Shown here: positions 5,429 to 23,541 of the stretch, in pieces
How the letters are laid out: each line of letters opens with the position of its first letter
Numbering within the stretch: position 1 is the first letter of the stretch
Source: Clostridiales bacterium
GTDB lineage: Bacteria; Bacillota; Clostridia; Saccharofermentanales; Saccharofermentanaceae
NCBI GenBank assembly: GCA_017527865.1
Contig: JAFXPN010000037.1
Location: 1-64,000, forward strand
Length of the DNA stretch: 64,000 nucleotides
Reading direction: 5' to 3'
Made by a program: the position numbers and the translations under genes
Notes under the pieces: model-generated
What the model was told of the DNA's origin: nothing
Databases searched by the model: none
What the model saw: only the letters and a program-made list of their open reading frames with translations

Positions 5429-7237
5429 ATGGAAAGACAGGACCTCATAAGAAATTTCTGCATAATCGCGCACATCGATCACGGCAAGTCTACGCTTGCC
5501 GACCGCATAATCGAACACACGGGCGTTGTCGATAAGCGTGACATGAAGTCGCAGATCCTGGACAATATGGACATCGAGCGCGAGCGCGGCATAACCATAA
5601 AATCCCAGGCTACGAGAATGACCTATACGGCAAAGGACGGGAATACCTATGTCCTTAATCTCATAGATACTCCGGGCCATGTTGACTTTAATTACGAAGT
5701 CAGCAGGAGTCTTGCCGCCTGTGACGGCGCGATCCTGATCGTAGACTCATCCCAGGGGGTCGAAGCGCAGACGATGGCTAATGCTTATCTTGCCGTCGAT
5801 GCCGATCTTGAGATACTGCCGGTGATCAATAAGATCGATCTTCCTGCAGCCCGCCCCGAAGAGGTCAGGCAGGAGATCGAGGATGACATCGGTCTCGATG
5901 CCTCATATGCGCCGCTCATATCGGCAAAGAATGATATAGGTATCGAGGATGTTCTCGAAGGGATCGTTAAGTATCTTCCTGCTCCCAAGGACCCGGAGGA
6001 TGAACCCTTCAGGGCATTGGTTTTTGATTCCAAGTACGACCCCTATAAGGGCGTTATCGTGAGCGTAAGGGTGCGCGCGGGAAAGATAAAGTCAGGCCAG
6101 ACCATCCGAATGATGCACACCGGCAAAGAATTCACGATTACGGAACTCGGATTCTTCCACCCCGGACAATATGTACCTGCTGACACTCTGGAAGCCGGTG
6201 AAGTCGGCTATATATGCGCGTCGATAAAGTCGGTCTCCGATACGGCTCCGGGTGATACCATCACTTCCGCGGAGAATCCTGCGGACGAGCCGCTGCCCGG
6301 CTATAAGGGGATCCAGCAGATGGTGTTCTGCGGTATATACCCCGTTGACGGCGCAAGGTACGGAGATCTGAGGGATGCTCTCGAGAAACTTCAGCTAAAC
6401 GATGCAGCTCTGTCTTTCCAGGCGGAGACCTCGGCGGCTCTGGGCTTCGGTTTCCGCTGCGGATTCCTGGGACTGCTGCACTATGAAGTGATCGAGGAGA
6501 GGCTCGAGAGGGAGTTTAACCTTGATCTTATATCCACCGCGCCTTCGGTTATCTATAAGGTCCACAAGACAGGCGGAGAAGTCCTTAATGTCGACAATCC
6601 TACTAATATGCCGGATCCTGCCGAGATCGACTTCATGGAAGAACCGTATGTCAATGCCGATATCATCCTTCCCAAAGAATATGTGGGCAACATCATGGAG
6701 CTGTGCCAGAACCGACGCGGCGAATATATCGACATGAAGTACCTTGACGACAAGCGAGTCGTGCTCAGGTATCTCATGCCCCTGAATGAGATTATCTACG
6801 ATTTCTTTGATGCGCTGAAATCACGCACCAGAGGGTATGCTTCACTCGATTATGAAATGGCCGAATACCGCCCGAGCAAGCTCGTAAAGCTCGATATCAT
6901 GCTCAACGGCGATCCCGTTGATGCCCTGTCTTTCATCGTTCATCAGGACAAGGCATACGAGAGGGGCAGAAGGATGGCCGAGAAGCTCAAGGAGAATATC
7001 CCGCGTCATCAGTTCGAGATCCCCGTTCAGGCCTGTATCGGCGGCAAGATCATAGCGAGAGAGACGATAAAAGCTTTTCGCAAAGATGTAACCTCCAAGT
7101 GTTACGGAGGCGATATATCGCGTAAGAAGAAGCTCCTCGAGAAGCAGAAGGAAGGCAAGAAGAGGATGCGTCAGGTAGGCTCCGTTGAGGTTCCTCAGGA
7201 GGCATTCATGAGCGTTCTTAAGCTCGATGAAGAGTAA
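5429..7237 (+). CDS. lepA: Elongation factor 4 (LepA), translational GTPase
   Basis: The protein has 602 aa, full length for the family. G1 is [10 protein letters not shown], the switch region includes [11 protein letters not shown]3 is [16 protein letters not shown] and G4 is NKID. The EF4-specific C-terminal domain is present (basic stretch [17 protein letters not shown], then [13 protein letters not shown]). LepA binds ribosomes, promotes back-translocation or rescue and aids 30S maturation. It is the third gene of the aspS-lepB-lepA run. Confidence 0.97.
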
Positions 7238-20480: not shown

Positions 20481-21355
20481 TAACCGCTGACAGATACTAC
20501 AAAGAGCGTTTCGGACGCAAGATGTATAAAGCGGCGATAAGCCTGGATGTGACATGTCCCAACCGTGACGGGACGCTTGGCACGTCGGGATGCGCATTCT
20601 GTTCTGCGGGAGGTTCGGGCGAGTTTTCTGCACCGCGTGAACTTACTGTGACCCGCCAGATAGACGAAGCGGTGGAAAGGCTTAGGAACAAAGTACCCGC
20701 CGGCACGGGCTACATAGCATATTTTCAAAGCTTTACGAACACATACTGTGACCCGTCATATCTTCGCAGGGCATTGGAGGAAGCTTCCTCACACCCGAAG
20801 GTGGCGGCGGTCTCTGTAGCAACAAGACCGGATTGCCTGCCGGATGACATAATGGATGTTCTGGCCGGGATATCGCAGAAAATACCTCTATTCGTGGAAC
20901 TCGGACTGCAGACGGCGGATGATGAAGTTGCCGCAGGCTTCGGGAGAGGGTATAAGACCGAAGTTTATGACCGGGCGGTCAAGGCGCTTAAAGACATCGG
21001 GATCAACGTCATCACGCATATCATCTTCGGCCTTCCGGGGGAGACACCCGATATGATGATAAGAAGCGTTGAACACGCGGTGAATGCCGGCACTGACGGA
21101 CTGAAGTTCACGTGCCTTTACATCCTTAAGGGAACGGCTTACGGGAAGCTTTTTGAGGAAGGAAAGATTGCGGCGTTGGATATGGAGGAGTATTTTGATA
21201 TCGTGGAGCGCGCGATCGATGTCGTGCCTTCTGATGTTGTCATCCACAGACTCACGGGGGACGGCCCCAAGAACCTTCTTCTCGCGCCGTTGTGGACTTC
21301 GGATAAGAGACAGGTCATAAACTATATCAACAGGAGATTTAAGGACCGCTTATGA
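20477..21355 (+). CDS. TIGR01212-family radical SAM protein (YhcC-like)
   Basis: The protein has 292 aa. The CxxxxxxxxCxxC cluster motif occurs as CPNRDGTLGTSGCAFC, the spacing typical of the YhcC/TIGR01212 group and of Elp3-like enzymes, and binds the [4Fe-4S]/SAM cluster. Further family stretches are AYFQSFTNTYCDPSYLRRAL, LGLQTADDEVAAGFGRGY and HIIFGLPGE. The reaction is not known with certainty for this group. Start and stop overlap the neighbours by 4 bp each, so dinB, this gene and the next form one operon. Confidence 0.9.
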   Translation: MITADRYYKERFGRKMYKAAISLDVTCPNRDGTLGTSGCAFCSAGGSGEFSAPRELTVTRQIDEAVERLRNKVPAGTGYIAYFQSFTNTYCDPSYLRRALEEASSHPKVAAVSVATRPDCLPDDIMDVLAGISQKIPLFVELGLQTADDEVAAGFGRGYKTEVYDRAVKALKDIGINVITHIIFGLPGETPDMMIRSVEHAVNAGTDGLKFTCLYILKGTAYGKLFEEGKIAALDMEEYFDIVERAIDVVPSDVVIHRLTGDGPKNLLLAPLWTSDKRQVINYINRRFKDRL

Positions 21356-21711
21356 AGAAATACATTCAGGCCTACATGAGAACAATACGGGAATTCATTG
21401 AGAAGGAGCTTCCGTCAGCGGATGCCTCCCGCATAAATGAGGTGCTCAAAGAGTTCGAACTTAAGATCGCATATTTCCAGCATGAGAGGTTTATCCACCT
21501 TATCGTCACGGTCCTTTTCGCGCTTCTCGAGATGATGGCGGTGTTTACTTTCTTTATCAGTCTGAATCTGAGCGCCATGCTCTTTGCGATGCTGTTCCTG
21601 ATCCTTCTCGTTCCTTATATCATGCACTATTACTTCCTGGAGAACAGCGTGCAGGAGATGTACAGGATGAGAGACGAGATCGTCAGTTCACTGCAGCCGA
21701 AGAAGCCTTAA
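21352..21711 (+). CDS. Small two-span membrane protein
   Basis: The protein has 119 aa. It starts inside the stop of the radical SAM gene (ATGA). A helical amphipathic N-terminus (about 1-45) is followed by two membrane spans (about 47-66 and 70-91) and a basic end. Its 3' end overlaps the convergent mscS gene by 29 bp. No known family is recognised. Confidence 0.75.
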   Translation: MKKYIQAYMRTIREFIEKELPSADASRINEVLKEFELKIAYFQHERFIHLIVTVLFALLEMMAVFTFFISLNLSAMLFAMLFLILLVPYIMHYYFLENSVQEMYRMRDEIVSSLQPKKP

Positions 21712-22747
21712 AGCACTTAAGTCCGTAATCCTTAAGCGCGGCGGTCATATTGCTGCCGAATTCCGATACATATTCACAATAAGCGTCGTAATCGGTGATG
21801 TCTGTCGTAAAGAAGATGTCGACGGGAATGCCGAACCCGGATGAAGCCCCTGACGTTTTGCACTGCAGGGCAAATCCCTCTTTGTAATGGGGATCTTTAC
21901 GGATGCTTTCCAAGACGAAATACCTCCACTTCGTGAGGTTCGTTTCGTTTCCGTCCTTGTCTATAGAGTCCGGGTCTATGGCAAGTTTGAAATTAACCTG
22001 CCTCATGCTGTCTTTTATCGTGTTGTGCCAGTTCTTGAAGGAAGTTGACTGGAAAGTGCTCGCGGGCAGTGTATACATGATGTTGTCAAAGCCCTGCACC
22101 TTGACCGTGACCAACGCTATATCCTTGACTTCGCCTTCCACGCCAAGCGACGGGATCGATATCCAGTCTCCGATCTCGAAGAGATTCTCTGATGTTATCT
22201 GAAGTCCTGCGACAAATCCCTTGATGATGTCCTGGAATATGAGAGATATGATGGCAGTGAAGGCTCCTACTCCGGACACGAGAACAACCGGGTTCTGGTT
22301 AAGGAGGATCGAGATCAGTATCACTGCGAAAAGAATGCACACCGCGATCTTGATGACTGAAAGTATTCCCTTTATGGGGCGCTTCCGGGATATTTCCTTA
22401 GTGACATAGACTGCATTTATCATATCGAGCAGATCGCAGGATAAGATCATCAGCATGATCGTGCTGCCTATGGAAGAGAACTTGGAAAATGCGGGGTAGG
22501 TCAGTACGAAGAATACAAAAACCGCCGTCTTGAAGATGATCTTCTTGCGCTTTACAAAAGCTGACGAGACCTTGATGGCGCTTATCTTCGAATTGGAAAG
22601 CGAGAACGAATTGATTATCTTTAAGATCACATATAAAATGGCTGCGATGAGTGCGGCATAGAGCACCTTTATGAGTATGGAGAGGAAGTCGGACAACAGA
22701 CCGTCTCCGAGGAGCTCAACAAGCCATCGGTCTATCAGTTCGTACAT
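21683..22747 (-). CDS. mscS: MscS-family mechanosensitive ion channel
   Basis: The protein has 354 aa. Several N-terminal membrane spans (about 18-160) lead to the pore helix and the hallmark beta domain (GFVAGLQITSENLFEIGDWI, then VEGEVKDIALVTVKVQGFDN). A soluble C-terminal alpha/beta domain follows (about 250-350). Family role: opens under membrane tension to release osmolytes during down-shock. GGAGGTGAC precedes ATG 22747. The sequence is somewhat diverged from E. coli MscS, but the domain order is normal. Confidence 0.9.
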   Translation of the reverse strand: MYELIDRWLVELLGDGLLSDFLSILIKVLYAALIAAILYVILKIINSFSLSNSKISAIKVSSAFVKRKKIIFKTAVFVFFVLTYPAFSKFSSIGSTIMLMILSCDLLDMINAVYVTKEISRKRPIKGILSVIKIAVCILFAVILISILLNQNPVVLVSGVGAFTAIISLIFQDIIKGFVAGLQITSENLFEIGDWISIPSLGVEGEVKDIALVTVKVQGFDNIMYTLPASTFQSTSFKNWHNTIKDSMRQVNFKLAIDPDSIDKDGNETNLTKWRYFVLESIRKDPHYKEGFALQCKTSGASSGFGIPVDIFFTTDITDYDAYCEYVSEFGSNMTAALKDYGLKCFKASSAAVN

Positions 22748-22869
22748 AAGTTGTCACCTCCGGGAATGCTCGCGGATACACCCGCACAACAAAATCATTA
22801 TAACATGCCGTCAAGGCACTGCCTACCCGCAAATACTAACAATATTTGAACAAATAATTGTGGGTTTTG

Positions 22870-23535
22870 AGATGTTGTTGAGGAGGCAGCGCGGGGGTAG
22901 TATTAAGGTAGCTCCAGGGAATACTGAAGACAAAGTATTCGGACAGGGCAAGCCGCCTTACCTTTACTTAAGCGGGCGCAGGGATTGAACCGGACGGTGG
23001 TGTACAGCGTCAGGCGAAGCCGAAGAAACGAACCTTGGTCGTGGTTATGAGACATTAGATCCGGGGGACACGAAGCAGAGTCTTGAGAGACAGGGAAGGA
23101 GATACGAGCTAAGCGATTGACGGAGGATGATCCGAAGGTTTTACCGGAAGTGATTGCTTACAAGTCGCAGTTGTAACAGATAAGTTGATTCGGATATCGA
23201 TCCGCGAGCTTATGAGATGTCATAGCCGACAGGTAGATACCGAGGTACGACGGATGTTACACCGGTTCGTGCAAACCGAGTAGCCGGTATAGTGTACGGC
23301 AGCGGGGGATGGTTATCATCGACCTGACGGTACACGGAAGAAGCAATTTGATATATGCGGTGAATGGGAGATACGAGTAGCACGGTGCAGGATCTTAAGT
23401 CGTTACAGTCGATGAGTTGTTGCGATGTAGGAAGGCTCGGGAGGTTAGTAAAGGGCGTGACCGGTCAGAAACGAAGTTTAGGTTCGCTGGAGCTTTTTAT
23501 ATGCGGTGAACATTTACAGGTTCACCGCATTTATA
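22870..23535 (+). ncRNA. Candidate large structured non-coding RNA, about 650 nt, class unknown
   Basis: The 800 bp between mscS and the thioesterase gene have no convincing ORF on either strand. The plus strand is purine-rich and dense in short perfect hairpins: 22919-22925/22934-22940 (GAATACT/AGTATTC), 23080-23083/23088-23091, 23158-23163/23171-23176 (TTACAA/TTGTAA), 23191-23195/23200-23204 (CGGAT/ATCCG), 23211-23215/23220-23224 and 23263-23267/23274-23278. The final stem is 11 bp (23501-23511/23520-23530). Two motifs recur: GGAGATACGAG (23098 and 23367) and ATATGCGGTGAA (23353 and 23499). tmRNA, RNase P and 6S signatures are absent. Known giant bacterial RNAs of this size (ROOL, GOLLD, OLE) are possible relatives, but I cannot match a consensus by eye. 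The 5' end is approximate. Confidence 0.55.
23501..23530 (+). repeat. Perfect 11-bp hairpin overlapping the thioesterase promoter
   Basis: ATGCGGTGAAC and GTTCACCGCAT enclose the 8-nt loop ATTTACAG. It closes the candidate ncRNA, and its loop carries the TTTACA -35 of the next gene. A TTTATATATA stretch follows, which is only a weak terminator tail. Confidence 0.75.
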
Positions 23536-23541
23536 TATAAT
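23513..23541 (+). promoter_or_regulatory. Sigma-A promoter of the thioesterase gene (leaderless start)
   Basis: TTTACA (23513-23518), exactly 17 bp, then TATAAT (23536-23541). The expected start point is about 23548, one base before ATG 23549. No ribosome site is present. Confidence 0.7.

Follow-up and report, generated by a model that had tools for sequence, protein, structure and literature searches.

The 64-kb stretch of DNA analyzed here, referred to below as the window, contains an interval (22748–23539) with no credible gene on either strand. It is bordered by the start of an MscS gene at 22747 (minus strand) and the start of a thioesterase gene at 23540; the ORFs in between are short, overlap one another and do not exceed 105 aa. 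A sequence-only reading of this DNA had reported no ORF on either strand for 800 bp here. The MscS-type channel gene (21683–22747, minus strand) is located between the RNA described below and the gene of a 119-aa membrane protein (21352–21711, plus strand), an arrangement seen in some members of the genus; in others the same position holds a different membrane protein gene or nothing. The gene of the 119-aa protein lies between an MnmL/YtqA gene and the RNA, is conserved in much of the genus, and encodes a product with no Pfam or NCBIfam match.

The RNA gene and its transcription signals

Within the interval lies the gene of a structured RNA (Table 1). The region originally delimited at 22870–23535 does contain this RNA, but its limits are corrected here to 22910–23493, with the terminator reaching to about 23535. 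All intact homologues used start with AGYTCCARGGAATRC and finish with GGTTCGYTGGARC, deviating from these sequences once or twice at most, and 22910–23493 is the equivalent segment of the window. Across the family the end motifs are nearly invariant (5′ AGYUCCARGGAAURC and 3′ GGUUCGYUGGARC) and pair with each other as the closing helix.

Table 1. Features of the RNA gene and its flanks (window coordinates)
Feature	Position	Strand	Details
RNA gene	22910–23493	+	584 nt, AGCTCCAGGGAATAC to GGTTCGCTGGAGC; homologues, constant ends and covarying structure, without Rfam match
Promoter (predicted)	22875–22903	+	−35 TTGTTG (22875–22880), 17-nt spacer, −10 TAGTAT (22898–22903)
P1 closing helix, 5′ strand	22911–22922	+	GCTCCAGGGAAT; partner 23482–23493
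AGCCGCC motif after first hairpin	22951–22957	+	CCGCC invariant in 24 genus members
Helix Pa, 5′ strand	23105–23109	+	CGAGC, immediately 5′ of hairpin H1; 100% paired within genus
Hairpin H1	23113–23168	+	GCGATTGACGG ... ACAAGTCGC
Two inner helices, 5′ strands	23170–23188	+	Partners 23409–23415 and 23419–23426
Branched stem-loop	23189–23244	+	TTCGGATAT...ATACCGAG around CCGCGAGCTTATGA/TCATAGCCGACAGG; helices 10–11, 9 pairs with two-sided changes
Long helix	23257–23390	+	23257–23272 with 23370–23390, around variable apical region
Helix Pa, 3′ strand	23435–23439	+	GCTCG; partner 23105–23109
Unpaired AAAGGG near 3′ end	23450–23455	+	Nearly invariant in genus
P1 closing helix, 3′ strand	23482–23493	+	GTTCGCTGGAGC; recovered also as inverted repeat
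Intrinsic terminator	23501–23530	+	11-bp stem, then T-rich tail; terminator region to ~23535

The predicted −10 hexamer of the window ends 6 nt before the first A of the RNA, and in 88 of the 101 homologues the hexamer likewise ends exactly 6 nt 5′ of AGCTCC. Promoters matching at least 9 of the 12 consensus positions were found in 68/101 homologues, compared with 2.2% of shuffles, and in distant relatives and other genera they are near consensus (−35 TTGACA, −10 TATACT or TATAAT). At the other end, what had been described as a strong closing stem is the intrinsic terminator; terminator-like structures lie downstream in 85/101 homologues versus 16/101 shuffles. Comparison of the homologues shows a discrete transcription unit, with its own σ70-type promoter predicted to start transcription at about 22910 and an intrinsic terminator predicted to end it at about 23535.

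The RNA is purine-rich, as had been observed: its purine content of 60.8% is reached by only 1.4% of 584-nt stretches in the 64 kb, and all 101 homologues share the property (mean, 61.8%). Two recurrent motifs are also present as described, GGAGATACGAG at 23098 and 23367 and TATATGCGGTGAA at 23352 and 23498, but they are not features of the family. The second copy of TATATGCGGTGAA is a terminator arm absent from most relatives, and most relatives have GGAGACATGAG in place of the second copy of GGAGATACGAG. The longest open forward stretch is 65 codons, with no excess over shuffled sequence (63 codons). A coding explanation was rejected: there is no long ORF, length differences are not limited to multiples of three, and conservation follows base pairing.

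Conserved structure and covariation

The impression of a hairpin-dense region did not hold up by energy alone. Single-sequence folding of the window RNA gives a minimum free energy of −203 kcal/mol (z = −1.44), and 3 of 20 shuffles were equally good; folding energy by itself does not prove structure. The RNA is instead established by comparative evidence, which goes beyond the single sequence available to the first reading. That reading had proposed aligning homologous regions and testing them for covariation. Our main test used 24 diverse members of the genus (Saccharofermentans), and as controls the 3′ partners were slid and 500 shuffles were made. The predicted structure comprises 100 pairs in 15 helices. 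In this structure 92.3% of cells are paired, compared with 32.8–41.7% when the 3′ partners are slid, though the paired percentage is biased in the structure's favor, since its prediction came from a related alignment; two-sided changes depend on this less. These occur at 44 pairs, compared with 11–22 in the slid controls and 29.3 in shuffles, and the covariation score is 0.307 (0.053–0.097 slid, 0.191 shuffled). On none of five structure measures did any of the 500 shuffles reach the real value. A four-core-helix model applied to 25 more divergent members behaved in the same way as the 100-pair structure. Our own tree-based covariation test of single column pairs, run with two nulls, was underpowered and placed one pair above background, with 6 of the 20 top pairs inside the predicted structure; this test is weak because two clades dominate the alignment. 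Pairwise identity within the homologue set goes down to 47%.

P1 has 11 pairs with 100% of cells paired in the 24 sequences, and two of its pairs show two-sided changes (CG/UA and GC/AU). In H1, the outer stem is 100% paired with two-sided changes at 4/6 pairs, and the inner stem has such changes at all four of its pairs; H1 can be recognized in every genus of the family and also in parts of family f3. Next come two inner helices (helices 8 and 9), which are 99.4% and 85.6% paired, with two-sided changes at 2 and 4 pairs, respectively, while the long helix (helices 13 and 14) is 97.1% and 93.3% paired, with 6 such pairs. Outside the genus, most other genera and G199, a genome of another order, carry the AGCCGCC motif at about the same spacing from the 5′ end, and AAAGG or AAAGGG follows 3′ of helix Pa in most other genera.

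Distribution, surroundings and architecture of the family

In a nucleotide search, 54 of 99 relatives matched; almost all of them belong to one genus, which a pattern search in named genomes identified as Saccharofermentans, represented mostly by rumen and gut metagenome bins. The RNA is also present in the cultured isolates YAD3003, AB4001 and KHP2. Homologues are ~58–80% identical to the window sequence, aligned over most of its length. A covariance model of the core (R1) found the RNA in 78 of 85 genomes of the genus, in single copy except in G137, where two copies lie on different contigs. Because the remaining seven show no copy by model or motif, the RNA is not strictly universal in the genus. 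Three of these genomes (G006, G053 and G142) are 97–99% complete and lack a copy by either model or the 5′ motif, reflecting either real loss or strong divergence. One subclade (L171–L174 and L083, from G137, G155, G144 and G038) has a 437- to 449-nt form missing ~100–130 nt of the 5′ domain.

Beyond the genus, a second model that included divergent members (R2) gave nine weak matches (24–28 bits) in sister genera, all of which, on reading the DNA, carry the 5′ motif with zero mismatches together with the 3′ motif. A joint pattern of the 5′ motif and GCCGCC, which is independent of the covariance model and for which the reversed pattern gave zero matches, picked out 83 of 188 genomes of the order, belonging to seven genera, and also G199. 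The 15-mer 5′ motif alone revealed further members in families f2, f3 and f4, some with two tandem copies, and nearly all have a matching 3′ end where the contig extends far enough. One 15-mer match, in contig C41 of G067, has no 3′ motif and looks like chance. Homologues are thus present in all the other genera sampled from the family and in each of the order's four families, as well as in a single genome from a different order; in a phylum-wide sample of 398 genomes the window alone was found. The RNA thus appears to be old within the order, with at least one member outside it. In the single-contig genome G064 of family f4 (L241), two adjacent copies start at 6001 and 6501 on the minus strand, with identical ends and differing interiors. 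In G067 (L243, 7696 to the contig end), a second tandem copy contains many AGATCAAA tandem repeats, within which the contig stops.

Most lineages have hpt (PF00156) and a cytidylate-kinase-like gene (PF13189) arranged tail-to-tail with the RNA; hpt is convergent and downstream in 70 of 103 loci, including that of G199. This recurrence, extending to another order, indicates vertical descent of an independent gene. The upstream genes vary; in the window's genus they frequently include dinB, the gene of the radical SAM protein MnmL/YtqA and that of the 119-aa membrane protein. With a convergent hpt directly following it in most lineages, and in the other order too, the RNA might act in cis on hpt and the cytidylate-kinase-like gene, either by interfering with transcription or by serving as an antisense 3′ partner. 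We regard this as very unlikely. In the window's own clade a thioesterase gene takes the place of hpt and the RNA is unchanged in kind; altogether, the window and ~20 other loci with enough downstream sequence have no hpt yet keep the RNA with the same structure, which argues against cis action. Moreover, the RNA has its own terminator. In one subclade a lone tRNA-Thr gene, not a tRNA island, lies ~2 kb downstream of the RNA, and many assemblies (at L053, L058, L062, L063 and similar loci) break 2–2.5 kb downstream of the RNA, near a tRNA-Thr gene.

The ends of the RNA form inverted repeats and a few genomes carry two copies, as a mobile-element remnant or decayed gene might, but such an origin is extremely improbable, given that the location, promoter and terminator are conserved and the structure covaries. 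In addition, phage and plasmid records gave no match to the RNA, and viral contigs no match to the 5′ motif. Viral contigs did give four matches to the 3′ motif; these lack a 5′ partner and were dismissed as chance.

Homologues range in length from 245 nt (L215) and 269–274 nt (L200 and L207) up to 623 nt, the compact natural forms including those of G199 (274 nt) and G126 (269 nt). P1 and the GGGAAUAC/GGUUCGC strands are common to all; the GCC(G/A)CC hairpin, helix Pa just 5′ of H1, and AAAGG near the 3′ end are common to most. The window's genus has CGAGC/GCUCG as Pa; elsewhere the same place is taken by GCGAAC/GUUCGC (DNA GCGAAC/GTTCGC), GCGAAU/AUUCGC (DNA GCGAAT/ATTCGC) or UGCGGGUA/UGCUCGCA (DNA TGCGGGTA/TGCTCGCA). 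A few automatic anchor rows were wrong in the cross-genus Pa and H1 tables (for Pa, e.g., L037, L064, L198 and L207); these were read by eye and the numbers left unused. Support for Pa across genera comes from the recurrence of complementarity at the same position and not from single comparisons, which are modest against shuffles (0.003–0.3).

The middle of the RNA, by comparison, is conserved within a genus and scarcely alignable between genera. Fourteen sequences of sister genus g28 have 236 invariant columns and two-sided changes at 58 of 152 predicted pairs, in a structure predicted from the same alignment on which it was tested. In family f4 the middle is A-rich and nearly of low complexity, and the 245- to 274-nt forms keep little beyond the frame. 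We therefore favor, with moderate confidence, an order-wide RNA class in which a closing frame is fixed and the interior is rebuilt from genus to genus, that is, a constant docking module with an exchangeable structured payload. We know of no other large bacterial RNA with such a design.

Two other explanations bear on this contrast between frame and middle. The RNA could be a large ribozyme, its conserved core catalyzing a reaction, or an RNA-only assembly whose core forms a homo-oligomer. It has a complex branched fold and, within the genus, more than 100 invariant columns despite a mean column identity of only 52%, and RNA-only complexes have been seen by cryo-EM for ROOL, GOLLD and OLE (PMC12286853). 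Even so, we consider this unlikely: a catalytic core should lie in the middle, yet this is the part that scarcely aligns between genera; what persists is the closing frame and H1 alone, and the compact forms retain little besides the frame. Alternatively, a purine-rich middle might capture an RNA-binding protein or pair with many mRNAs as a regulatory sponge, the closing helix serving only to stabilize it. The purine bias of every homologue, the AGATCAAA repeats that make up part of one lineage's copy, and the fast change of the middle between genera fit such a role, which is nevertheless rather improbable, as the middle in any one genus has a specific structure that covaries and contains invariant positions, which a sponge would not need, and the ends are conserved far above what stability alone requires.

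Proposed role and comparison with known RNAs

The existence and anatomy of the RNA are well supported by these comparisons, which show vertical inheritance, a covarying fold, a closing frame and no apparent coding capacity. As to function, we infer that the region is probably a gene for a stand-alone structured noncoding RNA that acts in trans and belongs to a family not catalogued before, and that this RNA probably serves as a ribonucleoprotein scaffold, a role suggested by analogy. P1 encloses the first hairpin domain, helix Pa, H1, the large variable middle and the conserved AAAGG strand. Because the interior varies while the frame (P1, GGGAAUAC/GGUUCGC, H1 and AAAGG) stays constant, the frame most likely binds a conserved partner, with a protein as the likeliest candidate and the ribosome as a possible one. 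The RNA may then act in trans as a scaffold or regulator within a ribonucleoprotein particle, in which the middle would be a lineage-specific domain that sets the particle's target or supplies lineage-specific contacts. Among the remaining rivals, a ribozyme or RNA-only assembly ranks first, a sponge second and cis action on hpt third.

Few bacterial RNA classes reach this size, and several of them have proved unusual, among them ribozymes, RNA cages and membrane-bound particles. The RNA described here spans an order of gut, rumen and related bacteria and is near-universal in its genus, with terminal bases that are near-constant and a middle that is rebuilt. This contrast makes its function approachable, as the frame can be used as bait for a partner. 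In addition, the compact natural forms of 245–274 nt are small enough for structure determination, and the cultured isolates that bear the RNA make expression and knockout tests possible.

The family is previously uncatalogued and lies outside Rfam 15. Covariance scans of the window at gathering and permissive thresholds gave no relevant match, and those of six relatives and two compact homologues gave none. The sequence-only reading had suggested either one of the giant RNAs ROOL, GOLLD and OLE or a new class, and had listed these, RNase P, tmRNA and group II introns as families to search for; none matched in the region. Membership in the three giant classes did not survive: ROOL (named for its rumen origin) was unmatched in the window, the six relatives and the two compact homologues, GOLLD and group II introns were unmatched in the window and six relatives, and OLE (RF01071) went unmatched at both gathering and permissive thresholds in the window, relatives and compact homologues. 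A whole-genome search for OLE in the window's genome was also negative; as it was silent in every control genome it is weak alone, and the direct Rfam scans agree with it. The RNase P RNA (RF00010) of the genome lies elsewhere (C32:66600–66958, 252 bits), and tmRNA was ruled out, ARAGORN finding none in the window and Rfam giving no match. The new-class alternative is the one borne out, the region being conserved, covarying, noncoding, equipped with promoter and terminator, and without Rfam match. With its own predicted promoter and terminator, conserved covarying structure and no coding sequence, it appears to belong to the large stand-alone structured noncoding RNAs. We found no description of such an RNA in the literature on Saccharofermentans or this genomic context. 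Structured-RNA candidates from the human microbiome, of 27–219 bp (PMC8040213), were discovered by the same principle, as conserved, covarying intergenic sequence outside Rfam; by that size range the full RNA lies outside them, and a fragment could be among them.

ROOL and GOLLD resemble the RNA in being large and ornate. They are encoded by phages or prophages, often near tRNA islands (PMC12286853), whereas the RNA here is a chromosomal gene with conserved chromosomal neighbors and no phage or viral match. GOLLD, moreover, has a universally conserved 3′ region, while here both ends are conserved and not a 3′ half. Because Clostridia often carry raiA, a search was also made for this RNA (RF03072). 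No sampled genome of the order, nor G199, gave a match; the only one came from G188, of another family, and its sequence shows by eye no resemblance to the RNA at the ends. The raiA motif RNA, or ModT, is abundant and trans-acting in C. difficile (PMC11706538) and, like the RNA here, is a stand-alone structured RNA of Bacillota, though of ~210 nt compared with 584 nt in the window. OLE shares with the RNA a length of ~600 nt, a chromosomal gene in Bacillota and an ornate conserved structure. It often adjoins the OapA gene (PMC11332333); the RNA here adjoins MnmL/YtqA, the 119-aa membrane protein, MscS, and thioesterase or hpt, and OapA (CNNM-like; PF01595) had no match among five neighboring proteins of the window. 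Unlike OLE, the RNA is constant at its ends across genera and changes in its middle. On the best reading, it is an RNA comparable in kind with OLE or raiA.
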